Below the pieces are notes generated by a model, which did not search any database, was not told where the DNA came from, and worked only from the letters and a program-made list of their open reading frames with translations. A stretch of 45,338 bases of DNA from Polyangiaceae bacterium (GTDB lineage: Bacteria > Myxococcota_A > Polyangia > Polyangiales > Polyangiaceae): the NCBI GenBank assembly GCA_020846005.1, contig JADLEQ010000020.1, forward strand, positions 1 through 45,338, given 5' to 3'. The translations under genes and the position numbers were made by a program. This document shows positions 11,728-43,384 of this stretch, in pieces (positions within the stretch are counted from its first letter, which is position 1; each line of letters opens with the position of its first letter).

Positions 11728-12264
11728 TCAGCGGATCGTGCGGGTGGGGAAGTGCACGTCGCGGCGCGCGCTCTCCGGCGCCGGGGGCCGCGGCTCGCCG
11801 AACAGCCCCACGTCACCGCTCGCGCGCCGCTCCCGGACGAGCTGCCAGCCCCCGTCGCGGTCGCTCCACACCTGCGCGACGCGCGTCGCTCGGAGCGTCG
11901 TGTCGTCGCTCGCGACCCACGCGACGTCGACCTCGACGATGGCGTTGTGCTCGTCTTGCATCGACATGCCCGTCAGCTCGACGTCGAGCACGCGGACGTC
12001 GCGGCCCCAGGTCGCGCGCCGCTCCAGGAAGGCCTTGCGCGCCCCCTCGGCGGCGAGGGAGGCGGCCACGTCCAGGCGTCCGAAGCGCGCCGCGGTGTTC
12101 ATCTCCCGCGCCGCGTCCATGACGCGCTGGGAGGTCGGGGGGGGCGCCATGCACGCCCCGAGCGAGAGCGCTAGGAGGAGTCCACGGAGCGCGCCGGGGC
12201 CGGCGCCGGGGCGCGCGACCGCGCGCGCGAGGGCGGCGGCGAGGCGGACGATGCAGAGGTTCAC
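11728..12264 (-). CDS. Small lipoprotein coupled to ftsEX-envC, function unknown
   Basis: A 178-residue predicted lipoprotein. GTG 12264 overlaps the upstream stop as GTGA, which decides the start over a GTG at 12276. The signal peptide ends LLLALSLGAC, a good lipobox. The mature part (QRVMDAAREMNTAARFGRLDVAASL ... VWSDRDGGWQLVRE) reads as one helix pair followed by a twisted sheet, like NTF2/SnoaL-fold lipoproteins that begin with a helical cone. No catalytic residues are apparent. Its translational coupling to the division operon suggests a role in the same periplasmic process, for example positioning or regulating the EnvC-like factor. That is inference. Confidence 0.72.
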   Translation of the reverse strand: MNLCIVRLAAALARAVARPGAGPGALRGLLLALSLGACMAPPPTSQRVMDAAREMNTAARFGRLDVAASLAAEGARKAFLERRATWGRDVRVLDVELTGMSMQDEHNAIVEVDVAWVASDDTTLRATRVAQVWSDRDGGWQLVRERRASGDVGLFGEPRPPAPESARRDVHFPTRTIR

Positions 12265-13226
12265 AGTCCCAGCCACTCCCCCGGGTCGACGGCCTCGGCC
12301 CCGACCCGGATCTCGAAGTACACGCTCGGGCCGCCGGGCGCGTCCCCGACCCCGCCGAGCCGCGTCCCGGTGACCACGTCATCCCCGACCGCGACGGAGA
12401 TCTCGGAGAGGTTCGCGCTCACCGTGAAATGGTTCGCGCCGTGGTCGACGATCACCGTCCGCCCGTAGTCCGCGTACAGGTCGGCGAACGCGACGCGGCC
12501 CGCGTGGACGGAGCGCACGGCCGAGCCGTACGGCGCGCGCAGCTCGACGCCCGGCGCGCCGTTGCTCCTGCGCAAGCGCCGGACCTCGGTGCGGCCCGCG
12601 AGCGGCAGCGGCAGTCGCCCGCGGAGCGCGGCGAAGCCGCCGGTCGTCTCGGCCGGCGCGGCGGGGCCGACGGCGCCGTACACCGCAGCGTGCGCGCCGT
12701 CGCCCGAGAACGCGCGCGCGAACGCCTCGTCTCGCTCCTGGGCGGCGGCGACCGCCGCGCTCGCCCGCGCGAGCGACTCCGCCTGCGCCTCGAGCGGGAG
12801 CCGCTGCTTGCGCAGCCGCTCGCGCTCCTCGGCGATCCGCGCGCGCTCGTCGACCAGCGCCCGCTCCTGCTCCACGTCACGCGCCAGCGCGCGTCGAAGG
12901 CGCTCCACGCGCGCCGCGTGGTCGACCAGATCTTCGAAGCCGCCGCCGACCGGCAGCAGCCCCGCGCGCGCCAGCCGCACGTAGCTACGGCCCCGCGCCA
13001 GCGTCCGCGCGCGGATCCGCTCGAGCTCCTGCGCGAGCGCCGCGGCGCGCTTCTCCAGCCGCGCGTCGTCCCGCGTCAGGCGCTCGAGCTCGCGGTGGAG
13101 CGCGTCGACCGCGTCCCCCGCGGGCGGGGCCGTCCCGACGCCGGCCGGTGCCGGTCCCGCCGGTCCGGCGAGCGCGCCGGTCCCGACCAGCAGCGCGGCG
13201 AACCCGAAGCGGAGCGCGCGTCGCAT
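12261..13226 (-). CDS. EnvC-like murein hydrolase activator (degenerate LytM domain)
   Basis: A 321-residue exported protein. The signal peptide (MRRALRFGFAALLVGTGALA) is followed by a long coiled coil (residues about 40-165, with repeated RARELE-type heptads) and a C-terminal LytM/M23 domain (about 215-321). The domain's active-site positions are not those of an active M23 enzyme. GVELRAPYG replaces the G-[IV]-D-[IL] aspartate motif, NHFTVSANLS replaces the usual H in 'YGHL', and SVYFEIR replaces HxHFE. This coiled coil plus inactive LytM architecture is that of EnvC, which is recruited by FtsX and activates cell-wall amidases at division. Its place 3 bp downstream of ftsX supports that. The gene symbol is withheld because orthology was not tested. 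Confidence 0.88.
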   Translation of the reverse strand: MRRALRFGFAALLVGTGALAGPAGPAPAGVGTAPPAGDAVDALHRELERLTRDDARLEKRAAALAQELERIRARTLARGRSYVRLARAGLLPVGGGFEDLVDHAARVERLRRALARDVEQERALVDERARIAEERERLRKQRLPLEAQAESLARASAAVAAAQERDEAFARAFSGDGAHAAVYGAVGPAAPAETTGGFAALRGRLPLPLAGRTEVRRLRRSNGAPGVELRAPYGSAVRSVHAGRVAFADLYADYGRTVIVDHGANHFTVSANLSEISVAVGDDVVTGTRLGGVGDAPGGPSVYFEIRVGAEAVDPGEWLGL

Positions 13227-13229
13227 GCT

Positions 13230-14096
13230 TCAGCTCCCGAGCAGCCGCCGCAGGCTGAGGTGCGCGGCGCCCGCGCCGATCGCGGCGCCCAGCGCCACCA
13301 GCGCGGCCGCGATCGTCCACGGCAGGAAGGTGAGCGGCGTCCCGAGCAGCAGGCCGAGCTGCCCGTCGAGGCTCGACCGGACGATGGCGTAGAGCAGCCC
13401 GACCAGCGCCACGGCCGCGAGCGCGCCGAGCGCGCCCTGCCCGGCGCCCTCGAGCACGAAGGGCCGCCGCACGTATGCGTCGGTCGCGCCCACGAGCTTC
13501 AGCACCTCGATCTCGATCCGTCGCCGGGCGAGGACGAGCCGCATCGTCGACGAGACCACGCTCACGACCGCCGCCAGCACGATCAGCGCGAGCAGCGCCG
13601 CCGCCGCGTACCCGCGGTCGAGGAGCGCGCCGAGCCGCTCGCTCCAGGCCTGGTACGTCTCCACGCCGGTCACCGCGGGCAGCGCGGCGAGCTGGGAGGC
13701 CATGCGCGCGAGCCGCGCAGCCGCCGCGTCGTCGGCGAGCGAGACCTCGAGCGACGCGGGGAAGGCCTCGGCGGGGAGCGCGGCGACCAGCGCGTCGCCG
13801 CTCGCGCCGAGCTCGCGGCGCGCGTCCTCGCTGGAGACGAAGCGCACCGAGGTGACCCCCTCGGTCGCGCGGAGCGCGCGGTCGATCGCGGCGACCTGGG
13901 GCTCCGTCACCGCCGGGTCGAGGTACACCGACGCGCGCCCCGTCCGCGCCCAGGCGCCGCGCACGGCGTTCACGTTGACCACGACCAGCAGCGTCGCGGC
14001 GAGACAGACGAACGCCACCGCCACCGAGAACACGCTGAGCCCGTGGAGGCGCCAGTCGCCGCGGCTCCCGCGGAACGCGCGGTCGAACGCGTTCAC
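13230..14096 (-). CDS. ftsX: Cell-division ABC transporter-like permease FtsX
   Basis: A 288-residue inner-membrane protein. A first membrane helix (LHGLSVFSVAVAFVCLAATLLVVV) is followed by a periplasmic domain (residues about 45-160, with ASVYLDPAVTEPQVAAI and VRFVSSEDARRELG, standard FtsX blocks), then three more helices toward the C-terminus. VLKLVGATDAYVRRPFVLEG is the conserved FtsX cytoplasmic-loop signature. It pairs with FtsE and passes ATP-driven movement to EnvC in the periplasm. GTG 14096 overlaps the ftsE stop as GTGA, and the envC-like gene begins 3 bp after this stop. Confidence 0.93.
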   Translation of the reverse strand: MNAFDRAFRGSRGDWRLHGLSVFSVAVAFVCLAATLLVVVNVNAVRGAWARTGRASVYLDPAVTEPQVAAIDRALRATEGVTSVRFVSSEDARRELGASGDALVAALPAEAFPASLEVSLADDAAAARLARMASQLAALPAVTGVETYQAWSERLGALLDRGYAAAALLALIVLAAVVSVVSSTMRLVLARRRIEIEVLKLVGATDAYVRRPFVLEGAGQGALGALAAVALVGLLYAIVRSSLDGQLGLLLGTPLTFLPWTIAAALVALGAAIGAGAAHLSLRRLLGS

Positions 14097-14887
14097 GCGA
14101 CCTCCAGCGCGGGCGAGGCGTCGGCCGTGAGGTCGTCCAGGCCCGCTCGCGCGTCGATGGCCCGTCCGTCGTCGAGGACGACGACCCGCCGGGGGCGGAT
14201 GTCGAGGAGCGACCGGTCGTGCGTCGCGAACAGCACCGTCACGCCCGTCTCGTGGATGTCCTCGAAGAGACCGAGGATGTCGACGGCGAGCTGGGGGTCG
14301 AGGTTACCCGTGGGCTCGTCGGCCAGCACGAGCGCGGGCTCGCCCACGATCGCTCGCGCGATGGCGACCCGCTGCTGCTCCCCACCGGAGAGGTGCCCCG
14401 CCACCTCGTCCCCGCGGCCGCCCAGGCCTACCCGATCCAGCACCTCGGCGATCCGTTTGCGGACCAGGCGGGCCGGCAGTCCCAGCACCTCGAGCGGGAC
14501 CGCCACGTTCTCGGCTACCGTCCAGTTGTGCACCAGCTTGAAGTCCTGGAACACGATGCCGACGTTGCGCCGGAGGAACGGCACGGCGTCGGCGCGGAGC
14601 CGGCCGATCTCGCGGCCGAGGAACAAGATCCGCCCGCTGTCGACCGTCTCGGCCGCGTAGAGCAGCCGGAGCAGGGTGCTCTTGCCCGAGCCGGACGGGC
14701 CGGTGATGAAGACGAATTCGCCCCGCTCGATCTCGAGCGACAGGCCGCGCAGCACCGGCGCGTCGAGGCGGAACGCCTTGTGCACGTCCTCGAACACCAG
14801 GATCGGGCGGTTCGCGGCGTCCCGGTCGAACCGGCTGCCGCCGCGGAGCACCGGGCGAAACGCGCGGCGGCTGGCGCCAGCTTCCAT
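14093..14887 (-). CDS. ftsE: Cell-division ATP-binding protein FtsE
   Basis: A 264-residue ABC ATPase with Walker A GPSGSGKST (residues 63-71), Q-loop VFQDFKL, signature LSGGEQQRVAIARAI, Walker B ALVLADEPTGNLD and H-loop FATHD. NVGIVFQDFKLVHNWTVAENV is diagnostic of FtsE among ABC proteins. I start at ATG 14887. This leaves about 28 residues ahead of the usual FtsE N-terminus, so the in-frame GTG at 14851 is possible. The C-terminal tail is also longer than usual. The gene leads a tight operon ftsE-ftsX-envC-like-lipoprotein with 4-bp or 3-bp junctions. It is divergent, by 71 bp, from the formyltransferase-like gene. Confidence 0.93.
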   Translation of the reverse strand: MEAGASRRAFRPVLRGGSRFDRDAANRPILVFEDVHKAFRLDAPVLRGLSLEIERGEFVFITGPSGSGKSTLLRLLYAAETVDSGRILFLGREIGRLRADAVPFLRRNVGIVFQDFKLVHNWTVAENVAVPLEVLGLPARLVRKRIAEVLDRVGLGGRGDEVAGHLSGGEQQRVAIARAIVGEPALVLADEPTGNLDPQLAVDILGLFEDIHETGVTVLFATHDRSLLDIRPRRVVVLDDGRAIDARAGLDDLTADASPALEVA

Positions 14888-14958
14888 GCTGGGTCCGCTA
14901 CCAGCCGGCCCCGGGCGAGCCAACTTTTCGGCGCTCTCGCGCGGGCGGGCGGCGGGGC

Positions 14959-15911: not shown

Positions 15912-16919
15912 ATGACCGATCCCGTGAGCGCCGCCCGCAACGCACGTCAGAACCTCGCGCAGGGGCTCGGCGCACTCCAAGATCCCGGCGCGCCGCCCGC
16001 GCTGCAGAGCGTCGCAGAGCCGATCGCGGCCGCGATGAGCGCGCTGCACCGCATCGAGTCCTCCGGAGGCGCGGCCGCCGCGGAGGCCGCGCCGCACGCG
16101 CTCGACGCCGTGCGCCACGCGCTCTCGATGCTGCAAGCGCAGTCCGGGTCGACGCCGCATCCTGCCGTCGATCGCGCCATGGAGGCGGTCGCCGGCTCGC
16201 TCGGGCTCGTGCACTCGCTCGCGCAACACGCCCGCCCGGCGGCGCCTGCGCCGTACCAGGCTCACCCGGCGCCCGTCGCGCCCGAGCCGCCCCACGCGGC
16301 GGCGAGCGTCGGGCCGCCCACTCGCCCGTCGGCGGCGGGCCCCGCCTGGGGCGCCGCGACGGAGGTCGCCGCCGCGCCCCAGTGGCAGCAGCCGCCTGCG
16401 CAGCCGGCGCCCGCGCAGTGGCAGCAGCCCGCGCAGCCGGCGCCCGCGCAGTGGCAGCAGCCCGCGCCCGCGCCCCAGCCGGCCGCCGCGCAGTGGCAGC
16501 AGTCCCCCGCCGCGGCGCCCGCGCCCCAGCCGCAGTGGCCGGTTCAGCCCCCGGCGGCTGCCGCGGCCGCCGCAGCTCCCGCGGGCGCGCAGCTCGTCGA
16601 GGCCGAGCTCGGCGCCCACAGCGCCACCAACTTCTACAAGGGCCTGAGCGGGAACGACGTGATCGACTCGGGCGGGATCTTCGTCGCGACGTACAACATC
16701 CCCAAGATCGGCCAGCAGCTCACGCTCAAGGTCAGCATGCCCGGCGGCTACGAGTTCGAGGCGCTGGGGATCGTGCGGTGGACTCGCGACGCGCCGCTGT
16801 CCGGCGCCGACGCGCCGCCCGGGTTCGGAGCGCAGTTCACGAGCATCACCCAGGAGGGGCGCCAGCTCGTGTACCGCTACGTGCGCAACCGCGAGCCGCT
16901 CTTCCACGACGACCTCTGA
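15912..16919 (+). CDS. PilZ-domain protein with Pro/Gln-rich linker
   Basis: A 335-residue cytoplasmic protein. An N-terminal helical region (residues about 1-100, Ala-rich) leads to a low-complexity linker with repeated AQWQQPAQPAP units (about 155-205). The C-terminal PilZ-type domain (about 220-330) reads SATNFYKGLSGNDVIDSGG, IFVATYNIPKIGQQLTLKV, FEALGIVRWTRD and GFGAQFTSI. This matches the compact PilZ variant (TIGR02266 type) frequent in myxobacteria. The classical cyclic-di-GMP-binding RxxxR plus D/NxSxxG signature is only partly present (DSGG; no clear RxxxR), so nucleotide binding is uncertain. ATG 15912 has an upstream GGAGGA 9 nt away. The repeated linker DNA (about 16380-16510) is prone to length change. 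Confidence 0.85.
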   Translation: MTDPVSAARNARQNLAQGLGALQDPGAPPALQSVAEPIAAAMSALHRIESSGGAAAAEAAPHALDAVRHALSMLQAQSGSTPHPAVDRAMEAVAGSLGLVHSLAQHARPAAPAPYQAHPAPVAPEPPHAAASVGPPTRPSAAGPAWGAATEVAAAPQWQQPPAQPAPAQWQQPAQPAPAQWQQPAPAPQPAAAQWQQSPAAAPAPQPQWPVQPPAAAAAAAAPAGAQLVEAELGAHSATNFYKGLSGNDVIDSGGIFVATYNIPKIGQQLTLKVSMPGGYEFEALGIVRWTRDAPLSGADAPPGFGAQFTSITQEGRQLVYRYVRNREPLFHDDL

Positions 16920-16947: not shown

Positions 16948-19900
16948 ATGCCGCCGGCGGCCTGCGGGCGAGGCGGCTCGAGCGCCGGTCGCGCGCGCGG
17001 GTCCGTTCGCAGGGTGGCCGCGGCGGTGGCAGCGCTCGGCTCCGTCGCAGCGACGTCGCTGAGCGCCCCGGAGGCGCGGGCCGGGGATCCGTGGCTGCGC
17101 TGGCACACGATCACGACACCCCACTTCCGCGTCACGTACCACTCGGGGCTGGAGGAGCCCGCCCAGCGGGTCGCGACGCTCGCTGAGGGGATCCATCGCA
17201 GGGTGGCCTCCTCGCTGGGCCACGCGCCGGGCGAGCGCACGGAGGTGCTCCTCACCGACGACACGGACTCCGCGAACGGCTCGGCGACCGTCGTGCCCTA
17301 CGCGGAGGTGCGGATGTACGCGACGGCGCCGGACGACATGTCTCCGCTCGGGGACTACGACGACTGGCTGCTCGAGCTGCTGACTCACGAGTACGCGCAC
17401 GTCGTCCACCTCGACCAGATCAGCGGCCTTCCCGCGCTGGTGAACCAGCTCTTCGGGCGGATCTATGCGCCGAACCAGGTCCAACCGCGGTGGATCATCG
17501 AGGGGCTCGCCGTCGCGCTCGAGAGCGAGCACACCGGCGCCGGGAGGCTGCGGTCCACCCAGTTCGACATGTACCTCCGGGCTGACGTGCTCGCCGGGCG
17601 GCTCGCGACGCTCGACCAGATCAGCAACCCCGCGCGCCGCTGGCCCAGCGGCAACCTCTGGTACCTCTATGGCGGCAAGTTCGTCGGGTGGATCGCGGAG
17701 GTCTACGGCCCCGAGACGTTCGGCGCCGTGGCGGCCGACTACGGCGCGTCGCTGATCCCGTGGGGCATCAACCGCGCGATCCGGCGCGTGACGGGCCGTA
17801 CGTACCCCCAGCTCTACCGAGGCTTCCGCGCCCACCTCGAGCGACGCTACGGCGATCAGGCTCGGGCCATCCGGGCGAGGGGACTCCGCGAGGGAACCCG
17901 GCTCACCCATCGCGGACGCGTCGCCGGCCCTCCGCGGTTCGTGCCGCGCTGCGGGCGCGCCGGCGCGCGCGAGGAGCTCCTCTACACCGTCGACGATGGC
18001 CAGACCCCGGTTGGTATTTACCGCCTCCCCCTGGAGGCACCGGATCGCGCGGCCGAGGCGGACGCGGAGCTCGTCACGCGGACGAACGGGCGCACGCTCG
18101 CGTTCGACGGCGAGTGCGGCACGGTCTTCGAGGGGATCGCGCCGTCCACCCGCCGGTACTTCTTCGGAGACCTCTTCCGGCTGCCCGCCGGGAAGGCGGC
18201 GCCGCGCGGGTCCGAGCGGGTGCGCGAGCGGCTCACCGTCGGGAGGCGCGCGCGCGAGCCGGACGTCTCGCGGGACGGCCGGCGCGTGGTGTACGTGACG
18301 AACCGAGCGGGGTCGTCGGTGCTCCGGCTCGCGGACTACGGGCCCGACCACCGCCTCCGCCGAGAGCGCACGCTCGTCGAGGGGCTCGCGTACGAGCAGG
18401 TCTACACGCCTCGGTTCTCGCCCGACGGGCGCCACGTCGCCTATGGGACGTGGACGCGCGGCGGCTATCGCGACATCCGCGTGGTCACCGTCGCTACGGG
18501 CGAGGTCCGGCGGATCACGGGCGACCGCGCGATCGACCAGCAGCCGACGTGGTCGCCGGACGGCGCGCACCTCTACTTCGTCTCCGATCGGACGGGCGTC
18601 GCCAACGTGTACCGCCACGAGCTGGCGACCGGCGCGCTCCGGCAGGTGACGAACGTCCTCACCGGCGCGTACATGCCCGAGCTCTCCGAGGACGGCGGGA
18701 CGCTCGTCTACGTCGGCTACGGCCCCGACGGCTTCGACCTGTGGTCGATGCCGGTCGATCCGGCGCGCCTCCTCCCGGCGCCGCCGGAGGTCACGGAGCG
18801 CCCCGGGCTCCCTCCGGCCACCGACGCCCGCTGGCCGGTCGAGCCGTACTCCCCGTGGCGCACGCTGCGCCCTCGGGCGTACGAGGTCGACCTCGTGACC
18901 GGCAGCCTCGGCGACGCGCTGCTCGTGACGACGATCGGCGCCGATCTCGTCGGACACCACGGCGTGAGCGCCGCGCTCAGCGTGGACCTCGACCAGGCCG
19001 AGTGGTCCGGCTCCGTGGGGTACGCCTACCGGCGGCTGCCCTTCGATCTCGGGCTCCGCGCGTTCCGATCCATCTCCATGCGCCGCGGCTACCGTTACGG
19101 TGATCAGGAGCCGACCTTCCTCGAGACGTACACCGGCGCGTCGTCCTCGATCGGCTACTCGGCGCCGGGGGAGCTCGACGGGCAGAGCTACGCGCTCACG
19201 TACACGATCGGCGAGTTCGACTCGCGGCTCCCCGTCGGGCCCGTGGCCGACCCGTACGCCCTCGTGACGCGGGATCCGCACACCGGCGTCCTCGGGACGG
19301 TGTCGCTCTCGTGGACGTATGCGAACGCGGACGGACCGGTCTATGGCATCGGCGCCGAGCGCGGCTTCTACCTCGCCGCGGTGGCGGACTGGGCCGACAC
19401 GGCGCTGGGGAGCACGGACTCGCTCCTCGCCGTGAACACCCGGGCCGGCGCGTACGTCCCGCTCCCCTGGGGAGGTCACCACGTGCTGGCGCTCGGCGCG
19501 GCGGGCGGGATGGCCACGGGCACCTACCCGCGGCGCGGCTTCTTCGCGACCGGGGGCTTCGACGACACCCTCCCGCTGGTCGACGCCTGGACGGACGGCG
19601 TCCAGCAGAGCGCGTTCGTGCTCCGCGGGTACGAGCCCGCGCAGTTCGTCGGCTCGAGCTACGGCCTCGCGAAGGGCGAGTGGCGGTTCCCGCTCGCGTA
19701 TGTCGACCGCGGGGTCTCCACGCTGCCCGCGTTCCTGCGGACGGTGAGCGGCGCGTTCTTCGTCGACTGGGGGGGTGCGTTCGATCGGATCGATCTCGAG
19801 GAGCCGCTCGAGAGCTTCCACACCGGAGTGGGCGCCGAGCTCTGGCTCGACCTCGTCTTCGGCTACTACGCGCCCGGCAACCTCCGCCTCGGCGCCGCGC

Positions 19901-19965
19901 GCGGGCTCGACAGCGACGCGGCGGCCGGCTGGCAGACGTACCTGGTCGTGGCGGGCGCGCTGTGA
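16948..19965 (+). CDS. HEXXH peptidase / TolB-like propeller / outer-membrane barrel fusion
   Basis: A 1005-residue exported protein with three parts. After a signal peptide ending ARA (about residue 46) comes a gluzincin-type peptidase domain with THEYAHVVHLD (H147, E148, H151) and downstream WIIEGLAVALESE (E185), the full zinc set of the MA-like family. Residues about 300-640 are TolB/PD40 propeller repeats (FSPDGRHVAYGTW, WSPDGAHLYFVSD, LSEDGGTLVYVGY). From about 650 the sequence becomes alternating amphipathic strands rich in Gly and Tyr, with FVLRGYEP (R893-G894-Y895) resembling the VRGF/Y motif of Omp85-family barrels, and ends in a strand (YLVVAGAL). I infer an outer-membrane protein with a protease and propeller on one side. 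The peptidase residues are intact, so activity is plausible. Myxobacterial proteins with part of this layout are known; the substrate is not. Confidence 0.8.
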   Translation: MPPAACGRGGSSAGRARGSVRRVAAAVAALGSVAATSLSAPEARAGDPWLRWHTITTPHFRVTYHSGLEEPAQRVATLAEGIHRRVASSLGHAPGERTEVLLTDDTDSANGSATVVPYAEVRMYATAPDDMSPLGDYDDWLLELLTHEYAHVVHLDQISGLPALVNQLFGRIYAPNQVQPRWIIEGLAVALESEHTGAGRLRSTQFDMYLRADVLAGRLATLDQISNPARRWPSGNLWYLYGGKFVGWIAEVYGPETFGAVAADYGASLIPWGINRAIRRVTGRTYPQLYRGFRAHLERRYGDQARAIRARGLREGTRLTHRGRVAGPPRFVPRCGRAGAREELLYTVDDGQTPVGIYRLPLEAPDRAAEADAELVTRTNGRTLAFDGECGTVFEGIAPSTRRYFFGDLFRLPAGKAAPRGSERVRERLTVGRRAREPDVSRDGRRVVYVTNRAGSSVLRLADYGPDHRLRRERTLVEGLAYEQVYTPRFSPDGRHVAYGTWTRGGYRDIRVVTVATGEVRRITGDRAIDQQPTWSPDGAHLYFVSDRTGVANVYRHELATGALRQVTNVLTGAYMPELSEDGGTLVYVGYGPDGFDLWSMPVDPARLLPAPPEVTERPGLPPATDARWPVEPYSPWRTLRPRAYEVDLVTGSLGDALLVTTIGADLVGHHGVSAALSVDLDQAEWSGSVGYAYRRLPFDLGLRAFRSISMRRGYRYGDQEPTFLETYTGASSSIGYSAPGELDGQSYALTYTIGEFDSRLPVGPVADPYALVTRDPHTGVLGTVSLSWTYANADGPVYGIGAERGFYLAAVADWADTALGSTDSLLAVNTRAGAYVPLPWGGHHVLALGAAGGMATGTYPRRGFFATGGFDDTLPLVDAWTDGVQQSAFVLRGYEPAQFVGSSYGLAKGEWRFPLAYVDRGVSTLPAFLRTVSGAFFVDWGGAFDRIDLEEPLESFHTGVGAELWLDLVFGYYAPGNLRLGAARGLDSDAAAGWQTYLVVAGAL

Positions 19966-20005: not shown

Positions 20006-21460
20006 TCACGGGCCGCAGCAGTAGAGCGCCCGCGACGCGACGGCCTGGACGAACGTGCACGCGAGCCAGCCGTCTCCGGGGTCGCACAGGTAGGCTACGT
20101 CGCCCTGGCTGCAGGCGAAGTCGAGGTTGCTCGCGCGCTGGCAGCTCGCGCCGGTCGCGCCTCCGCCTCCGCCGGAGCCCGCGCTGCCGCCGGAGCCCGC
20201 GCTGCCGCCGGAGCCCGCGCTGCCGCCGGAGCCCGCGCTGCCGCCGGAGCCCGCGCTGCCGCCGGAGCCCGCGCTGCCGCCGGAGCCCGCGCCGCCGCCG
20301 GTCCCGCCTGCGCCGGCGGTACCCCCAGTCCCGCCCGTACCCCCGGTGCTGCCCTCTTCCCAGTCGCACGCCGAGCACTCGTTCGCGACGCAGCCCACGA
20401 GGGTCGAGAACTTGAGCGTGGCGCTCGCGTTGTGCCACGAGGTGCAGGTGTCGAAGCAGCTCGAGGTCTCGCCGCAGCCAGCGTAGCAGGTGAAGATCTC
20501 GCGGCACTCCACGTCGCCGCCGCAGCTCTCGGCCTGGCCGCAGCAGAACGACGCGAGGCACGCCGAGCAGGCGCTCTGCGCGATGGGGAGCTCACAGACC
20601 GTCGACCCACCCGTGCCGCCGGAGCCTCCGGAGCCGCTCGTGCCGCCGAGCCCGCCGGAGCCGCTCGCGCCGCCGGAGCCGCTCGTGCCGCCGAGCCCGC
20701 CGGAGCCGCTCGCGCCGCCGGAGCCGCTCGTGCCTCCGGAGCCGCTCGTGCCGCCGGAGCCTCCGGAGCCGCCCCACGCACAGGTCGAGCACGAGACGCT
20801 CACGCACTGGACCGCCTGCTGGAACGCCGCCACCGCTGACGACGGGCGCCCCTCCGCGCAGGTCGCGGCGCAGGTGGAGGTGGCGCCGCAGTTGACGAAG
20901 CACCCGAGCAGCTCACGGCAGGTGGCGTCGGTCGCGCACGCCGAGGTGGGTTCACAGCACTCGACCTCGAGGCAGTCGGCGCAATCGCCCTGCGAGATCG
21001 GTGCGCCGCAGACACCCGCGGTGCCGCCCGAGCCGCCCATCGCGGCCTCGCCGCCGGTGCCGCCGGAGCCGCCCATCGCGGCCTCGCCGCCGGTGCCGCC
21101 GGAGCCGCCCATCGCGGCCTCGCCGCCGGTGCCGCCGGAGCCGCCCATCGCGGCCTCGCCGCCTGTGCCGCCGGTGCCGCCGGTGCCGCCGGTGCCCGCG
21201 CTTCCCGTGCACTCCTTCGACGGCAGCGTCACCCACCCGCACCCGATCGCCGGGTCGCAGTAGTCGGCGGTGCATGGGTTGGAGTCGTCGCAGTCCGTCG
21301 CCCGCTGGCAGGCGCGGGTCGCCTTGCGCTCCTTGGCGTTCTCCTCGCCGGTGCACGCGCCCGCCAGCGCGGCCGCCGCTGCCGCCAGCGCTCCGATGAC
21401 GAGCCAGCGCGCGCGGCGGGGGAGCGCCGCCGCCGAGGCGGGTCGGGTCTGTTGGGTCAT
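20006..21460 (-). CDS. Cys-rich repeat lipoprotein with Gly-Ser-Thr linkers
   Basis: A 484-residue lipoprotein (signal ending ALAGAC). The mature protein alternates Cys-rich modules with Gly/Ser/Thr linkers. Module 1 ([28 protein letters not shown]) resembles the 'Cys-rich repeat' found in many myxobacterial surface proteins. Modules 2 and 3 are paralogous ([19 protein letters not shown] ... and [19 protein letters not shown] ..., each about 75 residues with about 10 Cys). A C-terminal Cys-containing tail follows. The linkers are built from three different tandem DNA repeats. ATG 21460 overlaps the upstream stop as ATGA. The longer frame reaching 22156 is not used because it would run antisense-like through the neighbouring gene. 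Probably cell-surface and structural or adhesive; no catalytic motif. Confidence 0.85.
20171..20296. repeat. 18-bp tandem repeat, 7 copies
   Basis: Unit GCCGGAGCCCGCGCTGCC repeated in phase with the reading frame (six identical, the last with one change), encoding SAGSGG. A coding minisatellite inside the Cys-rich lipoprotein gene. Confidence 0.9.
21030..21173. repeat. 36-bp tandem repeat, 4 copies
   Basis: Starts at 21030, 21066, 21102 and 21138 and encodes [12 protein letters not shown] in register. A third, less regular set of related short repeats (linkers of TSGSGG type) lies at about 20630-20770 in the same gene. Confidence 0.88.
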
Positions 21461-34087: not shown

Positions 34088-36319
34088 TCAGCCGGTCGGG
34101 ACCAGCACGAGGGCGCCGAGGGGCGGCAGGTTGAGCTGCATCGACTGGGCGCGGAAGTGCCACGGGACGGGCTCCGTCGAGACGGCCTTGCGGGTCCCGT
34201 AGCCGCTGCCGCCGAAGCGCGGCTCGTCGCTCGAGAGCGCCTCGACGTACGAGCCCGCCGCGGGCGCCCCGATGCGGTAGCCGGTGCGCGGCACCGGCGT
34301 GAAGTTGAGCGCGACCACGACGTGGCTCTCGCCGTCCCGCCGGACGAACGACAACACCGACTGCTCGCGATCGTCGCAGTCGATCCACTCGAAGCCGCGG
34401 TCGTCGTAGTCGCCGCGGAAGAGCGCAGGTGTCGAGCGGTAGAAGGTCCCGAGCGCGGCGAGCCACTCGCCGAGGGCGCGGCGCGCGGGCTCCTCCATCA
34501 GGTGCCAGTCCACGCTCGAGTCGTGGCTCCACTCGCCGGGCTGCGCGAGCTCGGAGCCCATGAACAGCAGCTTCTTCCCCGGGCGCGTCCACTGGTAGGC
34601 GTAGAGCAGCCGGAGGTTCGCGAGCTTCTGCCACATGTCGCCCGGCATCTTGGCGAGCAGCGAGCCCTTGCCGTGGACGACCTCGTCGTGGCTGAGCGCG
34701 TTCACGAAGCGCTCGGTGCGCTCGTAGAGCATCGCGAAGGTGAGCTCGTCCTGGTGGTGCTTGCGATGCACCGGGTCGTGGCGGAAGTAGCCGAGCGTGT
34801 CGTGCATCCACCCCATGTTCCACTTGAACGTGAAGCCGAGCCCGGCGTCGGGTACCGAGCGCGTCACGCCCGACCAGCTCGTCGACTCCTCCGCGATCGT
34901 GACGGCGCCCGGCGCCTCCTCCGCGACCCAGAGGTTCAGTGTCCGGAGCAGCTCGATCGCCTCCAGGTTCTCCCGGCCCCCGTGCTCGTTCGGCACCCAC
35001 TCGCCCGGCGAGCGGCTGTAGTCGAGGTACAGCATCGAGGCGACGGCGTCGATGCGCAGGCCGTCGAAGTGGAACTCGCGGAGCCAGTAGAGCGCGTTCG
35101 CGAGGAGGAAGTTCTTCACCTCGTTTCGGCCGTAGTTGAAGATGAGGGTCCCCCAGTCGGGGTGCGCTCCGCGACGCGGGTCCTCGTGCTCGTAGAGCGC
35201 CGTGCCGTCGAAGCGGTGGAGCGCGAACTCGTCACGCGGGAAGTGCGCGGGCACCCAGTCGAGGATCACCCCGAGGCCCGCCTGGTGGCACGCGTCCACG
35301 AAGAAGCGGAGGTCGTCCGCGGAGCCGTAGCGAGTCGTCGGCGCGTAGTACGAGGTCGTCTGGTAGCCCCAGGAGGGGTAGTAGGCGTGCTCGGCGAGCG
35401 GCATCACCTCGAGGTGGGTGAACCCGAGCCGGCGTACGTGCTCGACGAGCCGCGTCGCCAGCTCCCGGTAACGGAGCGATCGATGTCCCTCCTCCGGCAC
35501 CCGCGCCCAGGACCCGAGGTGGACCTCGTAGGCCGCGAGCGGCTCGCGCAGCGGCTGTCTCCGTGCTCGCGCCTGCATCCACTCGGCGTCCCGCCACTCG
35601 TGGTGCGCGGCGGTGACGCAGGACGCGGTCGCCGGGGGGAGCTCCACCGCGCGCGCCAGCGGATCCGTCTTGAGGAGCAGGCCGCCGCTCGCGGTGCGGA
35701 TCTCGTACTTGTAGAGCGCGCCCTCCCCCACTGCCGGGACGAACAGCTCCCAGATCCCGCTCACCCCGAGCGTCCGCATCGGCAGCAGGCGGCCGTCCCA
35801 CCCGTTGAAGTCGCCGACGACGCTCACGCGCGTGGCGTTCGGCGCCCACACCGCGAACGCGGTGCCGGGTTCGCCGTCGACGACGGTGGTGCGCGAGCCG
35901 AGCTTCTCCCACAGCCGGCGGTGGGTCCCCTCGTTGAAGAGGTGCAGATCGAGCGCGCCGAGCGTCGGCTCGAACCGGTACGGATCGCCGCGGTGCCAGG
36001 CGTTGCCGTCCGGGAAGAGGAACCGCAGAGAATAGCGGAGGGGGACGCGCGCGCCCGGCACGAAGCCCCCGAACACCCCGCCGCCGAGCGACTCGAGCGC
36101 GAGCGGAGCGCGCCCCTCCATCCAGCACTCGACCAGCGTCGCGTCGGGGTGGAACGCGCGCACCACGACGCCGTCCGCGCCGTCCACCGTCGCGGGGTGC
36201 GCGCCGAGCACCTGGTGTGGGCTCGAGTGCTCGCCGCGCCACAGCCGGTCGAGCGCGTCGGAGTCGCCCTCGAGCTCGGGGCGGGGCGGGCGCGAGTCAC
36301 GCAGAGACGGCGGCACCAT
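34088..36319 (-). CDS. glgB: 1,4-alpha-glucan branching enzyme
   Basis: A 743-residue GH13 enzyme forming alpha-1,6 branches in glycogen-type glucan. It has the N-terminal N1 and CBM48 modules (HSSPHQVLGAHP ... FAVWAPNATRVSVVGDFNGWD), the catalytic barrel and a C-terminal beta domain. Catalytic residues are D424 in FDGLRIDAVASMLYLDYSR, E477 in TIAEESTSW, and the third Asp in NALSHDEVVHGK. All family blocks (SWGYQTTSYYAPTTRYG, NYGRNEVKNFLL, GSELAQPGEWSHD) are present and the length is normal. ATG 36319 follows a TATGCT element by 9 nt, so it probably has its own promoter despite lying at the end of the glg cluster. The upstream gene is a GH13 lipoprotein 123 bp away. Confidence 0.96.
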   Translation of the reverse strand: MVPPSLRDSRPPRPELEGDSDALDRLWRGEHSSPHQVLGAHPATVDGADGVVVRAFHPDATLVECWMEGRAPLALESLGGGVFGGFVPGARVPLRYSLRFLFPDGNAWHRGDPYRFEPTLGALDLHLFNEGTHRRLWEKLGSRTTVVDGEPGTAFAVWAPNATRVSVVGDFNGWDGRLLPMRTLGVSGIWELFVPAVGEGALYKYEIRTASGGLLLKTDPLARAVELPPATASCVTAAHHEWRDAEWMQARARRQPLREPLAAYEVHLGSWARVPEEGHRSLRYRELATRLVEHVRRLGFTHLEVMPLAEHAYYPSWGYQTTSYYAPTTRYGSADDLRFFVDACHQAGLGVILDWVPAHFPRDEFALHRFDGTALYEHEDPRRGAHPDWGTLIFNYGRNEVKNFLLANALYWLREFHFDGLRIDAVASMLYLDYSRSPGEWVPNEHGGRENLEAIELLRTLNLWVAEEAPGAVTIAEESTSWSGVTRSVPDAGLGFTFKWNMGWMHDTLGYFRHDPVHRKHHQDELTFAMLYERTERFVNALSHDEVVHGKGSLLAKMPGDMWQKLANLRLLYAYQWTRPGKKLLFMGSELAQPGEWSHDSSVDWHLMEEPARRALGEWLAALGTFYRSTPALFRGDYDDRGFEWIDCDDREQSVLSFVRRDGESHVVVALNFTPVPRTGYRIGAPAAGSYVEALSSDEPRFGGSGYGTRKAVSTEPVPWHFRAQSMQLNLPPLGALVLVPTG

Positions 36320-36328
36320 GGACGGCCG

Positions 36329-36334
36329 AGCATA
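36329..36334 (-). promoter_or_regulatory. -10-like element of glgB
   Basis: Minus strand TATGCT, 9 nt before ATG 36319; no convincing -35 at standard spacing. Confidence 0.4.
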
Positions 36335-36372
36335 GCCCGCTCCCCGCCGGCAACCCACCCGCCCCCGCGCGC

Positions 36373-36436
36373 CGCTCGCGGCGTCGCCTCCCGCCGGCGC
36401 GCGTCGCTCGCGGCGTCGCCTCCCGCCGGCGCGCGT
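36373..36436. repeat. Perfect 32-bp tandem duplication
   Basis: 36373-36404 is repeated without change at 36405-36436, in the 123-bp gap between the GH13 lipoprotein gene and glgB. It lies 39 bp upstream of the glgB -10 element and may influence glgB expression. Confidence 0.93.
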
Positions 36437-36442
36437 CGCGGC

Positions 36443-38080
<1,638 letters not shown>

Positions 38081-38088
38081 GGGCAGCG

Positions 38089-38094
38089 ATCGTA
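38089..38094 (-). promoter_or_regulatory. -10-like element of the GH13 lipoprotein gene
   Basis: Minus strand TACGAT, 8 nt before ATG 38080, in the 52-bp gap after the FGE-fold lipoprotein gene. Confidence 0.35.
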
Positions 38095-38132
38095 CGCGTG
38101 GGCGAGCCGCGGGTCCAACGGCCGCCGGTGTG

Positions 38133-39098
38133 CTACTCGGCGTCCGCGCAGCAGCGGAAGCCCGTCTGGGCGCCGAAGTAGTACTCGTCGTGCGCGGTGG
38201 TCGCTGCGATGCAGTTGTTCCGCCCGGCGAGCCACCACCCGCCGCGGAGCCCGGAGCGATAGGGGTGCACGTAGCCGTCGCGCCACACCCACTCGTCGGC
38301 GTTGCCCGTCAGGTGGCGCACGCCGAACGCGCTCACGCACTCGGGGCGGTCCGCGGCCTTCACGCGCCAGTCCTTCAGGCGGGGCCCGTCCGAGAGGTCG
38401 GTGATGTCGTGGTTGCAGCGCCCGGCGTCGCGGGTGAAGCCGTAGGGATACGGCCACATCGCCTCACCCTGGCACGCGAACTCCCACTCGCTCTCGAAGC
38501 ACAGGCGCTTGCCGAGCGACTCGCAGGTCGCGCGCGCGAGCGTCCACGACTGATCGATCAGCGGCAGCTCCGCGCCGGGGGCGGTGTACTCATCGCGGTC
38601 GATGCAGAAGCGCCTGCGCTCGCGCGGCGCCCTGCACTCCACCTCGCGCGCGTACTCTGCGCAGCGGTGCTTGCGCAGGAAGCCGCCAGAGAGCTGCTCG
38701 TCCAGGTACCGGAGGCAGCGGTGCGCCGGCTTCGGGCAGTAGTTGCCCTCGATCAGCACCATGCCGTCCGGGCACGGCTCGCGCTCCGCGACCCCGAAGT
38801 CGGAGAGGCGCAGCTCCGGGTCGGGCAGGATCGGGACCTTGCCGCCGAGCGGTAGCGGCGTGGGCGGCGCCGCGGGGGTGAAGCAGAGATCGAAGCCCCG
38901 CCGCGGGTCGTGCCCCGGGCGGCTCGCCGGATCGAAGGAGCACTCCAGCGCCGTCGGGCTCGGCGCGGGGCGCGGCGCCGGGCGTGCCGGCGCGCGCCGC
39001 GCCGCGGAGCGCCACGGCGGCGGCTCGACGCACCCCGCGAGCGCGAGTCCCCCGGCGAGCCAGACCCCGAGGCGGCGCCGCTCAGTCGTCCGGCGCAC
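38133..39098 (-). CDS. Second FGE/SUMF1-fold lipoprotein, inside the glucan cluster
   Basis: A 321-residue lipoprotein (signal ending GGLALAGC) followed by a Pro/Arg linker and a Cys-rich SUMF1-like domain: CPDGMVLIEGNYCP, FCIDRDEYT, WTLARATCESLGKRLCFESEWEFACQG, HLTGNADEWVWRDGY, LRGGWWLAGRNNC, YYFGAQTGFRCC. It has the fold's WEF-C, GN-x-x-EW and GFRC landmarks, and extra cysteines that probably form disulfides outside the cytoplasm. The catalytic Cys pair of true FGE is not evident. Its GTG start at 39098 overlaps the 3' end of glgX by 17 bp, so it is made with the glucan enzymes. It is distinct in sequence from the one at 24165. Confidence 0.85.
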   Translation of the reverse strand: MRRTTERRRLGVWLAGGLALAGCVEPPPWRSAARRAPARPAPRPAPSPTALECSFDPASRPGHDPRRGFDLCFTPAAPPTPLPLGGKVPILPDPELRLSDFGVAEREPCPDGMVLIEGNYCPKPAHRCLRYLDEQLSGGFLRKHRCAEYAREVECRAPRERRRFCIDRDEYTAPGAELPLIDQSWTLARATCESLGKRLCFESEWEFACQGEAMWPYPYGFTRDAGRCNHDITDLSDGPRLKDWRVKAADRPECVSAFGVRHLTGNADEWVWRDGYVHPYRSGLRGGWWLAGRNNCIAATTAHDEYYFGAQTGFRCCADAE

Positions 39099-41208
39099 CC
39101 GGCACCTCGTGACGCAGCAACGCGACGGCGTGCGCGGCCACGTCCGTTCGTCCGCCCGTGACCGGCCCGAGCGCGCGCCCCGAGGTCCGCAGCACGACCG
39201 TCCACGCGCCGGGCTCGTGGAGCGGAGGGAGGGTCACCTCGGCGAGCGCCTCCGAGGCGTTCAGCAGCACGAGGTGAGTGGCGCCGGCGAGCTTGCGCCC
39301 GCGCTCGTCGAGCTCGTCGGAGGCGTCGCCGTGGATCAACATCCCGAGGAAGCGCATCGCCGGGTTCTGCCAGTCGCCGACCGTCATCTCCGTGCCGTCC
39401 TGCCGGAGCCAGAGGACATCCTTCACGGCCCTCCCCGCCAGCGGGTCCCCGGCGAAGAAGCGGCGACGACGGAACGCCGGGTTCGCGCGGCGGAGCGCGA
39501 AGACGCGGCGCGTGAACTCGAGCAGCTCGCGCGCCTCGTCGTCGAGCTCCCAGTCGAGCCACGCGAGCTCGTTGTCCTGGCAGTAGACGTTGTTGTTCCC
39601 GCGCTGGGTTCGCCCGAGCTCGTCCCCGTGGGAGAGCATGGGGACGCCCTGCGCAAACGCCAGCGTGGCGAGCAGGCTCTTCATCACGCGGCGCCGCAGC
39701 GCGCAGACCTCCGGCGTGGGCTCCCCCTCGCCGCCCCAGGCCCGCGACCAGTCGACCGGAGCGCCGTCCCGCCCCTCCTCGCCGTTCGCCGCGTTGAGCT
39801 TCCGTTCGTGGGTGACCAGATCGCGGAGCGTCATCCCATCGTGGCAGGTGACGAAGTTGATGCTCGCGTGCGGCCCGCGGTCGCCACGGAAGATGTCGCT
39901 CGACCCACCGAGGCGCGACGCGAGCTCGGAGACCTGCCCCGGGTCGCCGCGGACGAAGCGCCGCACGGCGTCACGGAAGCTGCCGTTCCACTCGGCCCAC
40001 CCGGAGGGGAAGCGCCCGAGCTGCCAGCCCCCGTGCGCCACGTCCCACGGCTCCGCGATGAGCTTCACCCGGGAGAGGACCGGATCCTGCTGGACCAGCG
40101 CGAAGAACGCCGCGCGGGGGTCGAAGCCGTCGTGCCCTCGCGCGAGCGTCGTCGCGAGGTCGAAGCGGAAGCCGTCGACGTGGTACTCGGTGACGAAGTG
40201 GCGGAGAGAGTCGACCACGAGCTGGAGCGCGCGCGGGTGGCGCGTGTCGAGCGCCGCGCCGCAGCCGGTGGTGTCGACGTAGCGGCGCCGGTCGCCCTCG
40301 CGCAGGCGGTAGTACGTCGCGTTGTCGACGCCGCGGAGCGAGAGCGTGGGCCCGAGCTCGTCCCCCTCGCAGGTGTGGTTGTAGACCACGTCGAGCAGCA
40401 CCTCGATGCCGACGCGGTGCAGCGCCTTCACCAGCGTCTTCAGCTCGGTGACCTGGGCGCCCAGCGACGAGGTGGCGAAGCGCGCGTCCGGTGCGAAGAA
40501 GCCGAGCGTCGAGTACCCCCAGTAGTTCGAGAGCCCCCGATCGTGCACCGCGCGCTCGGTGACGCGGTGGTGCACCGGCAGCAGCTCCACGGCCGTGACG
40601 CCGAGCGACACCAGGTGATCGAGGATGGCGTCGCTCGCGAGGCCGAGGTAGGTGCCGCGCAGGTGCGGCGGCACGCCGGGGTGCCGGGCCGTCATGCCCT
40701 TCACGTGGCACTCGTAGATGACGGTGCGACTCCACGGGACGGCGGGCGGGCGGTCGTCGCTCCAGGTGAAGGCGCCGTCGACGACGACGCTCTTCGGCAC
40801 GTACGGGGCGCTGTCGAGCGCCGAGAGAGAGAGGTCGGTCTCGGGGTGGGAGGGATCGTAGCCGTGGAGCGCGTCATGCCACCGCACGTCTCCGGCGATG
40901 GCGCGCGCGTACGGGTCGACGAGCAGCTTGCGCGGGTTGAACCGGTGCCCGGCGCGGGGATCGTACGGGCCGTGGACGCGGTACCCGTAGAGCTGCCCCG
41001 GGCGCACGTCCGGCAGGTAGGCGTGGAAGACATCCGCGTGTCGCTCCTCGAGCGGGACGCGCACCCGCTCCCGCGCGGCGTCCGGCGCGTCGAAGAGGCA
41101 GAGCTCGACGTGCGTCGCGTTCTCGCTGTAGACGGCGAAGTTCGTGCCCTCGCCGTCCCACACGGCGCCGAGGGGAGCGGGATCACCGGGCCAGACGCGC
41201 AGGCTCAC
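39082..41208 (-). CDS. glgX: Glycogen debranching enzyme (isoamylase type)
   Basis: A 708-residue GH13 enzyme hydrolysing alpha-1,6 branches. It starts with VWPGDPAPLGAVWDGEGTNFAVYSENATHVELCLFD (CBM48-like), then WSRTVIYECHVKGMTARHPGVP, LSNYWGYSTLGFFAPDARF, nucleophile D350 in VDGFRFDLATTLARG, acid/base E386 in KLIAEPWDVA, and INFVTCHDGMTLRDLVTHERKLN with the third Asp. The GNNNVYCQDNELAWLDW block is diagnostic of GlgX/TreX. GTG 41208 overlaps the glgE stop as GTGA, which sets the start. Full length, expected active, cytoplasmic. Confidence 0.95.
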   Translation of the reverse strand: MSLRVWPGDPAPLGAVWDGEGTNFAVYSENATHVELCLFDAPDAARERVRVPLEERHADVFHAYLPDVRPGQLYGYRVHGPYDPRAGHRFNPRKLLVDPYARAIAGDVRWHDALHGYDPSHPETDLSLSALDSAPYVPKSVVVDGAFTWSDDRPPAVPWSRTVIYECHVKGMTARHPGVPPHLRGTYLGLASDAILDHLVSLGVTAVELLPVHHRVTERAVHDRGLSNYWGYSTLGFFAPDARFATSSLGAQVTELKTLVKALHRVGIEVLLDVVYNHTCEGDELGPTLSLRGVDNATYYRLREGDRRRYVDTTGCGAALDTRHPRALQLVVDSLRHFVTEYHVDGFRFDLATTLARGHDGFDPRAAFFALVQQDPVLSRVKLIAEPWDVAHGGWQLGRFPSGWAEWNGSFRDAVRRFVRGDPGQVSELASRLGGSSDIFRGDRGPHASINFVTCHDGMTLRDLVTHERKLNAANGEEGRDGAPVDWSRAWGGEGEPTPEVCALRRRVMKSLLATLAFAQGVPMLSHGDELGRTQRGNNNVYCQDNELAWLDWELDDEARELLEFTRRVFALRRANPAFRRRRFFAGDPLAGRAVKDVLWLRQDGTEMTVGDWQNPAMRFLGMLIHGDASDELDERGRKLAGATHLVLLNASEALAEVTLPPLHEPGAWTVVLRTSGRALGPVTGGRTDVAAHAVALLRHEVPGAPDD

Positions 41209-43214
41209 GCCGGCTCCGGGACGTGGACGCGGAGGACGTGGCCCACCCGCTCCTTCGGGTCGAGCCGGACCCAGCCCTTCGCGCCGCGCCACGTCCACCG
41301 CTCACCGGTGAGCAGATCCTCGACGACGTAGGGTTGCTCGGGCGCGATGCCGAGCGCCTCGATCGGCACCTCGACGAACGCCTCGGCGGGCTCACGCGGG
41401 TCGAGGTTCACGGCGACGAGCAGCTCGTCTCCGGGGAAGCTCCTCCAGTAGGCCAGCAGGTGCGGCGAGTCGTGCGCGAGCAGGCGCAGGTTGCCGAGGT
41501 GCTGCAGCGCCGGGTGCTCGCGCCGCACGAGGTTCAGCCGGCGCACGTCCTCGCGGACGTCCCCGGGCGCCTCGCGCCGCAGCGTCTTCAGCTCGTACTT
41601 CTCGCTGTCGAGGTACTCCTCGCTCTCCTCGCGGACGGGCGTCGCGTCACACAGCTCGAAGCCGGAGTAGATGCCGTAGACGGGCACCAGCGTCCCGGCG
41701 AGGAGGAGCCGGATGCGGAAGGCGTTGCGTCCACCCCGCTGCAGGTACTCGTGGAGGATGTCCGGGGTGTTCGCGAAGAAATGGGGGCGGTAGTACTCCG
41801 TCACCGGGGGGCGCGCGTACTCCTCGAGGAACGGCTCCAGCTCCTCGCGCGTGTTCTTCCACGTGAAATACGTGTAGCTCGTGGTGAAGCCGAGCTTCGC
41901 CAGCGCGAGCATGCGCTTCGGTCGCGTGAAGGCCTCGCTCAGGAAGACCACCTCGGGGTGCCGCGCCTGGACCTCGGCGAGGCACCACTCCCAGAACGCC
42001 AGCGGCTTGGTGTGCGGGTTGTCGACGCGGAAGATCCGCACCCCTCGCTGGATCCAGAAGAGGAGGATGTCGCGGCAGGCCTCCCAGAGCCGCTCGCGAT
42101 CGGCGCACCAGAAGTCGAACGGGACGATGTCCTCGTACTTCTTGGGCGGGTTCTCCGCGTGCCGGATGGTGCCGTCGGCGCGCACGTGGAACCACTCCGG
42201 GTGCTCCTCGACCCACGGGTGGTCCGGCGCGCACTGGAGCGCGTAGTCGAGCGCGATCTCGAGCCCGTGATCGCGCGCCGCCCGGACCAGGTGCTCGAAG
42301 TCGCCCAACGTGCCGAGCTCCGGGCAGACGGCGGTGTGCCCGCCCTCGACCGCGCCGATCGCCCACGGGCTCCCCACGTCGCCCGGCCGCGCCACCGGGG
42401 CGTTGTTGCGCCCCTTGCGGTGCGCCCGCCCGATCGGATGGATGGGCGGCAGGTAGAGTACGTCGAAGCCGAGCTCGGCGAGCTCCGGGAGCCGCGCCTC
42501 CACGTCCTGGAAGGTGCCGTGCCGCCCCTCGACCGGCGACTGAGAGCGCGGGAACAGCTCGTACCACGCCGAGAAGCGCGCGATCGTTCGATCGACGACC
42601 ACCTCGTAGACCGCGGAGCGGACCAGGTCGTGCGCGGCGTGCGGGCCCCAGGTCGCGCGCAGCAGCTCGTGATCGAAGGCCGCCTCGAGCCGAGCCTCGA
42701 CCGGAGCCGCCTCGTCGGCGAGGCGCGCGGCGGCGGATCGCAGCGTCGCGGCCGCTCCGCCCGGATCGGCGGACGCGCGCGCGCGGAGCAGCCGGGCTCC
42801 CTCGAGGAGCTCGGGCGCGGCGTCCTGCCCGGCGTCGACGCGCTTCTTCAGCTCCTCGCGGAAGGTGCGGAATCGGTCGGGCCACCCCTCGACGCAGAAC
42901 GCCCAGCGACCGACTCGGTCGAGCGGGAGCGACGCCGTCCAGCGGTCGGCCTCGAAGTCGTACGCCAGCGGCTGCTCCTCGAACGACTCCGCCCCGGGCG
43001 CTCGCCAGAGCACGCGCGCCGCGACCAGGTCATGGCCGTCCTTGAAGATGTCCGCCCCCACCTCGAGCGTCTCGCCGAGGAAGCGCTTGACCGGGTGCCG
43101 GCCGCCGTCGAGCGCCGGGGAGATCCCCTCGAGGACCACCCGCTCCCGGCAGCGAGCGGACTCCAGGGTGATGCGGGGGACCTCGGGCGGCGGGAGGAGG
43201 CTGGCGCGTGACAC
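41205..43214 (-). CDS. glgE: Alpha-1,4-glucan:maltose-1-phosphate maltosyltransferase
   Basis: A 669-residue GH13 subfamily 3 enzyme that elongates alpha-glucan using maltose-1-phosphate. Diagnostic blocks are SAWYELFPRSQSP, LPPIHPIGRAHRKGRNN, VGSPWAIGAVEGGHTAVCPELGT, and PEWFHVRADGTIRHAENPPKKYEDI. The catalytic set is D398 in FRVDNPHTKPLAFWEW, E427 in FLSEAFTRPKRM, and Asp in FFANTPDILHEYLQ. The frame is open to 43322. I chose GTG 43214 because the protein then begins just before the RITLESARCRERVVLEGISPALDGG block, where GlgE proteins usually start. It is the first gene of the glg cluster, divergent from the 2Fe-2S protein gene. The partner enzymes TreS and maltokinase are not in the window. 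Confidence 0.94.
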   Translation of the reverse strand: MSRASLLPPPEVPRITLESARCRERVVLEGISPALDGGRHPVKRFLGETLEVGADIFKDGHDLVAARVLWRAPGAESFEEQPLAYDFEADRWTASLPLDRVGRWAFCVEGWPDRFRTFREELKKRVDAGQDAAPELLEGARLLRARASADPGGAAATLRSAAARLADEAAPVEARLEAAFDHELLRATWGPHAAHDLVRSAVYEVVVDRTIARFSAWYELFPRSQSPVEGRHGTFQDVEARLPELAELGFDVLYLPPIHPIGRAHRKGRNNAPVARPGDVGSPWAIGAVEGGHTAVCPELGTLGDFEHLVRAARDHGLEIALDYALQCAPDHPWVEEHPEWFHVRADGTIRHAENPPKKYEDIVPFDFWCADRERLWEACRDILLFWIQRGVRIFRVDNPHTKPLAFWEWCLAEVQARHPEVVFLSEAFTRPKRMLALAKLGFTTSYTYFTWKNTREELEPFLEEYARPPVTEYYRPHFFANTPDILHEYLQRGGRNAFRIRLLLAGTLVPVYGIYSGFELCDATPVREESEEYLDSEKYELKTLRREAPGDVREDVRRLNLVRREHPALQHLGNLRLLAHDSPHLLAYWRSFPGDELLVAVNLDPREPAEAFVEVPIEALGIAPEQPYVVEDLLTGERWTWRGAKGWVRLDPKERVGHVLRVHVPEPA

Positions 43215-43384
43215 GGCGGCGACCTCAGTCGAGACCGGAAGCGCGCGAAACGCAACCTCGGAGTCGGCAGGCCACGACGAGCGACGGCGCGCCGCGCTCG
43301 CCCGGCCCCACCGCGACGGCACGCGCGCGCGCCGGCCGTGGCGCTCCTCCCTCCTGGTGGGCGCGCCGCTGGTCGCGCCCGAGT

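Follow-up and report, generated by a model that had tools for sequence, protein, structure and literature searches.

Proteins that join a propeller to an outer-membrane barrel have been described before. The WD40-Omp85 proteins reported in 2014 have such a propeller-barrel plan, and the available text of that study suggests a role for them similar to that of BamA and BamB (PMC4104836). The OMP-TolB-like and FhaC-TolB-like proteins reported in 2025 also follow a propeller-barrel plan and are proposed, in the available text of that article, to represent an ancestor of TolB (PMC12204202). A different arrangement is found in PlpD, the prototype of type Vd secretion, for which topology experiments showed the patatin domain to be exclusively periplasmic (PMC11116518). 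Among proteases, the M48 enzyme BepA of E. coli is a periplasmic zinc protease that, according to the available text of the source, attends outer-membrane protein assembly (PMC8423444).

We analyzed a window of 45,338 nucleotides (the whole stretch of Polyangiaceae DNA under study) in which one gene (1005 amino acids plus stop) combines signal peptide, metallopeptidase domain, TolB-like propeller, and Omp85 barrel within a single chain (Table 1). The GC content by codon position (0.70/0.58/0.92) is coding-like. The signal-peptide region is the least conserved part of the orthologue alignment, and a short linker separates the propeller (to about residue 605) from the barrel (from about residue 641). 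The original prediction had recognized an exported chain that runs from a metallopeptidase domain (HEXXH...E) through a TolB-type propeller to a C-terminal barrel with an Omp85-like RGY motif, and had seen no POTRA domains in it. Pfam, profile comparisons, and the orthologue alignment agree with each element of this description: the domains, conserved catalytic residues, undetected POTRA, beta-signal, and phylum-wide conservation are all legible in the sequences themselves.

Table 1. Features of the peptidase-propeller-barrel locus, with positions counted from the first letter of the window.
Feature	Positions	Strand	Basis
Gene for peptidase-propeller-Omp85 barrel protein	16948..19965	+	Open reading frame, codon-position GC, orthologues phylum-wide
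Probable Sec signal peptide, residues 1-45 (RR...AAAVAALGSVAATSLSAPEARA, then GDPW)	16948..17082	+	Read directly from sequence
Gluzincin-type (clan MA) metallopeptidase domain, residues 46-310 (~265 residues)	17083..17877	+	Pfam of relatives, profile alignment, invariant residues
Zinc-binding, catalytic HExxH motif (HEYAH, residues 147-151)	17386..17400	+	H147, E148, H151 invariant across 71/71 intact orthologues
E185 of the EGxA...E segment (WIIEGLA), presumed to be the third zinc ligand	17500..17502	+	71/71 orthologues; register with the Peptidase_MA_2 EG-A glutamate
TolB-like beta-propeller, residues ~311-605; length and TolB homology make six blades probable	17878..18762	+	PD40, TolB matches
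Omp85-superfamily beta-barrel, residues ~641-1005; homology suggests 16 strands	18868..19962	+	Pfam, BamA profile match
LRGY motif, residues 892-895, equivalent of the Omp85 loop-6 (V/I/L)RG(F/Y) motif	19621..19632	+	Orthologue alignment; solved BamA 8xnb alignment
C-terminal strand resembling a beta-signal (QTYLVVAGAL, last 10 residues)	19933..19962	+	Orthologue C-termini
Immediate upstream neighbour with a PilZ domain, 28-bp gap, possibly in the same transcript	15912..16919	+	Pfam PilZ just over cut-off
FtsE (14093-14923), FtsX (13230-14096), M23 peptidase (12261-13226), divergent from the peptidase-propeller-barrel gene	12261..14923	-	Pfam

The peptidase domain carries the strongest conservation signal. 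None of the 71 intact full-length orthologues, which span the phylum at roughly 30-60% identity, departs from H147, E148, H151, or E185, and a further set of residues in the domain (D104, N110, P128, G170, G186, A188, E192, G199, R200, P233, Y239, and G242) is also invariant. Invariance of the four residues at this scale is far beyond chance expectation for an HExxH motif and argues for a working enzyme, and we infer that the domain is probably catalytically active. The residue count leaves aside a 72nd orthologue (L019, from genome G036), which is split between two frames in the peptidase region, near residue 200, through either an assembly frameshift or a broken gene. A profile of the N-terminal domain matched Peptidase_MA_2 (PF13485) proteins from the same family of genomes over about 220 columns, at 98% hhalign probability (E 2.2e-13); HExxH and the glutamate that follows it align in register. 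Peptidase_MA_2 was also the best direct Pfam match among the relatives (8 of 38 members, best 1.5e-5), ahead of weaker matches to the BSP, M9, M48, and M61 zinc-peptidase families. A Pfam search with the peptidase domain of the window copy alone returned no match, and the peptidase profile gave nothing significant against solved structures (best E 0.34).

The propeller is recognizable as TolB-like both from its Pfam match to PD40 (3.9e-15) and from comparison with solved TolB chains in the PDB (7e-26). The barrel matches PF01103 (Omp85) over the gathering score (1.7e-9 to 2.1e-8), and a profile built from 37 orthologous barrels matches solved BamA (8xnb) at 4.6e-7 across positions 8-345 of 360 and TamA at 0.0012. 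The LRGY motif aligns with the LRG loop-6 site of 8xnb; it occurs as such in 59 of 71 orthologues and in the form x-R-G-Y/F in 68 of 71. Two copies from GTDB family f21 (L082 and L083) have VRGM or VRGT in its place. An aromatic C-terminal residue is a mark of outer-membrane barrels (the beta-signal); F, Y, or W closes 60 of the 72 orthologues, and the window copy ends in L. Pfam detected no POTRA domain in the protein, while the same library recovered POTRA in the BamA of the same genome at 8e-61. A second Omp85 protein in this genome (L094, C19:73692-74066) likewise has no POTRA match in the readable part of its cut locus.

AlphaFold2 models were of low confidence, because only six sequences (the window protein and five relatives) were usable. 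Mean pLDDT was 41 for residues 46-330 and 51 for residues 46-1005, where the low-confidence model has about 14-15 barrel strands and a disordered end. In structure searches with this 46-1005 model, the propeller alone was recovered, matching TolB with a Z score of 18.8 (172 residues, 3.4 Å), and neither barrel nor peptidase appeared in the match lists, which counts neither for nor against these two folds.

Matches to the protein occur in 58 of 59 relatives searched, including all 45 good-quality genomes (45/45), and most relatives carry one full-length orthologue. Phylum-wide, 119 of 141 genomes have matches at 1e-10, many of them full-length and some of them weak matches to the propeller only; among good-quality genomes, 102 of 122 have a match. 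A scan of genome contigs returned five loci, all myxobacterial. Presence in nearly all related genomes, usually as a single full-length copy, fits a housekeeping function better than optional predation. Conservation is unevenly distributed along the chain: mean pairwise identity in the orthologue alignment is 45% for the peptidase domain, 38% for the propeller, and 32% for the barrel, and in 99.6% of sequence pairs the peptidase domain has the higher identity of the peptidase and barrel.

The genomic context is conserved at a narrower scale. The PilZ neighbour is kept in most same-family loci examined, and the full order of ftsE-ftsX-M23, PilZ, and the peptidase-propeller-barrel gene is kept in about a dozen loci of that family and not outside it. 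Clustering of genes in 40 loci found no conserved neighbours outside the family that would hint at a substrate. Just downstream of the gene, GCC/GGA-rich repeats of 18, 27, 36, and 45 bases form several arrays at positions 20169-21196, across which reading frames are low-complexity and hard to call. Elsewhere in the window, 34091-43322 on the minus strand holds genes for a GlgB-type branching enzyme, an amylase-family enzyme, a CBM48 glycosidase, and a GlgE maltosyltransferase (Pfam); this alpha-glucan cluster has the makings of a GlgE-type glucan pathway.

The reading that we favour, with modest confidence, is that the protein is a housekeeping periplasmic metallopeptidase that is tethered to the outer membrane and serves envelope maintenance, most plausibly by checking or cutting outer-membrane proteins or lipoproteins. 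The chain would be exported by Sec, and its C-terminal Omp85-type barrel would insert into the outer membrane and anchor it there. Propeller and zinc-metallopeptidase domain would then hang into the periplasm, where the propeller may act as a binding platform that holds a substrate or partner beside the active site. Protease activity would serve the upkeep of the envelope, with quality control of outer-membrane proteins or lipoproteins favoured by analogy with BepA; this substrate class is a guess and the weakest step of the explanation.

Several lines of evidence bear on the orientation and role of the protein. In the characterized Omp85 proteins, BamA and TamA among them, the N-terminal domains lie in the periplasm. 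Since these Omp85 N-terminal domains and the enzyme domain of PlpD are periplasmic, the propeller and peptidase are more likely to be periplasmic as well. TolB is a periplasmic protein, and the closeness of the propeller to TolB can be counted for the same placement. The greater conservation of peptidase and propeller relative to the barrel would be expected of inward-facing domains, yet in the peptidase it would fit any enzyme wherever located. A conserved, usually single-copy enzyme placed in the periplasm suggests envelope upkeep, and the adjoining ftsEX-M23 envelope genes can be counted for an envelope role, though they are limited to one family.

The original prediction had instead suggested a self-secreted or self-displayed surface protease, resembling a protease form of type V secretion with a plan comparable to type Vd, that would be useful to a predator or polymer degrader. 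On this reading the barrel would pass peptidase and propeller to the cell surface. The domain plan behind this proposal held up, and surface display is consistent with the passenger-before-barrel order, with a barrel from the translocation-competent Omp85 superfamily, and with the protein translocation by some Omp85 relatives (TpsB/FhaC) described in the available text of PMC4104836. The step to the cell surface fits less well, since the patatin domain of PlpD, the type Vd model, stays periplasmic; the authors of that work also argue that it is unfavourable to secrete a globular domain through a barrel of this kind once it has folded, whereas the type V passengers known so far consist largely of beta-helical or coiled-coil structure (PMC11116518). 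The gene is moreover core across the phylum and usually single-copy, unlike a variable predation gene, which speaks against surface display. We consider surface display improbable. A role as an outer-membrane protein assembly or translocation factor is unlikely but deserves somewhat more weight. In such a BamA-BamB-like device, barrel and propeller would be the main workers and the peptidase would remove failed substrates or trim clients. Homology of the barrel to BamA and the conserved LRGY motif speak for it, as does the comparable role that Heinz and Lithgow, in the available text, suggested for WD40-Omp85 (PMC4104836). Against it, POTRA, the usual chaperone-like domain, was not detected, the genome already encodes a canonical BamA with five POTRA stretches along with other POTRA-bearing Omp85 proteins, and the barrel is the less conserved part of the chain.

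The similarity of the propeller to TolB raises another alternative, that the protein acts like TolB in outer-membrane constriction or in the Tol-Pal system and works with the FtsEX-M23 cell-separation genes, which adjoin it within the family. No other protein of the genome matches the TolB model better than the propeller (TIGR02800 score 98.7 against a cut-off of 343), and PF04052 (TolB_N) has no match anywhere in this genome, the present gene included. This synteny is confined to one family, however, and a peptidase stands in the place of TolB_N. We regard the idea as very unlikely. The protein does not replace TolB in general, since TolB_N is present in 118 of 141 genomes of the phylum, most of which also carry the peptidase-propeller-barrel protein. 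Within family f21, at least 12 genomes yielded no TolB_N match. Least credible of all is a purely structural protein whose peptidase fold is a vestige without catalytic activity: the window copy, taken alone, lacks a Pfam peptidase match, but the four positions for catalysis and zinc binding do not vary among the 71 orthologues. MasABK of Myxococcus, a candidate from literature keywords, is unrelated.

Nearly every sampled genome of the phylum carries the protein with an intact active site, and we found no published description of its function; it is a conserved and apparently active protein that is uncharacterized in the literature found. A broader proposal is more speculative and, in our view, doubtful: these proteins may constitute a phylum-wide, hitherto unrecognized class of outer-membrane-embedded metalloproteases that act as single-chain machines for envelope quality control or, less likely, represent true protease-form type V secretion. 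If the favoured reading of an outer-membrane-tethered periplasmic protease is true, the protein would offer a testable handle on outer-membrane maintenance in these bacteria.

Comparison with known systems places the parts of the protein in different contexts. The Peptidase_MA_2 member of the same genome that scores in Pfam is encoded by a frame of 447 aa, in which neither a propeller nor a barrel was matched. A plasmid-encoded protein of Salinibacter ruber (WP_118831798, 'basic secretory protein-like') has the same peptidase-propeller order, retains HExxH...E, and matches the N-terminal domain at E 7e-19, but is 633 aa long and lacks the barrel. The first two domains thus form a module able to exist without the barrel. 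A match on a Gemmatirosa plasmid proved to be a different propeller protein. The likeness to BepA is one of functional analogy only: BepA belongs to a different family, has a TPR domain instead of a propeller, and has no covalent barrel anchor.

PF00149 is a metallophosphoesterase family. It is this family on which a separate 'Metallo' class rests in the available text of the WD40-Omp85 study (PMC4104836). Closer to the present protein are the WD40-Omp85 proteins themselves, with their N-terminal TolB-like propeller, Omp85 barrel, lack of POTRA, and proposed envelope role; the window protein shares their defining features, namely an Omp85-type barrel, a WD40/TolB-like propeller before it, and no POTRA detected by Pfam. 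The word 'peptidase' has no occurrence in the main text of that paper, whose supplementary domain tables may list one (PMC4104836). OMP-TolB-like proteins share the outer-membrane barrel and TolB-like periplasmic propeller, but the available text describes a Rossmann fold beside the propeller where the present protein has an HExxH peptidase domain at its N-terminus (PMC12204202). The propeller-barrel plan is therefore already known, and an intact gluzincin head is not mentioned for it in the available text of either article, though supplementary tables may list it (PMC4104836, PMC12204202).

The comparison with PlpD is of a different kind. Both proteins fuse N-terminal enzyme domains to an Omp85 barrel, but PlpD has a patatin lipase and POTRA and no propeller, whereas the present protein has a metallopeptidase and a propeller and no POTRA. 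We accordingly rejected membership in type Vd: Pfam found no patatin match and no POTRA between passenger and barrel, and the N-terminal domain is a clan MA peptidase. Should the protein be a periplasmic protease anchored in the outer membrane, the Omp85 barrel would have come to anchor an enzyme on more than one occasion, with PlpD as the other example.
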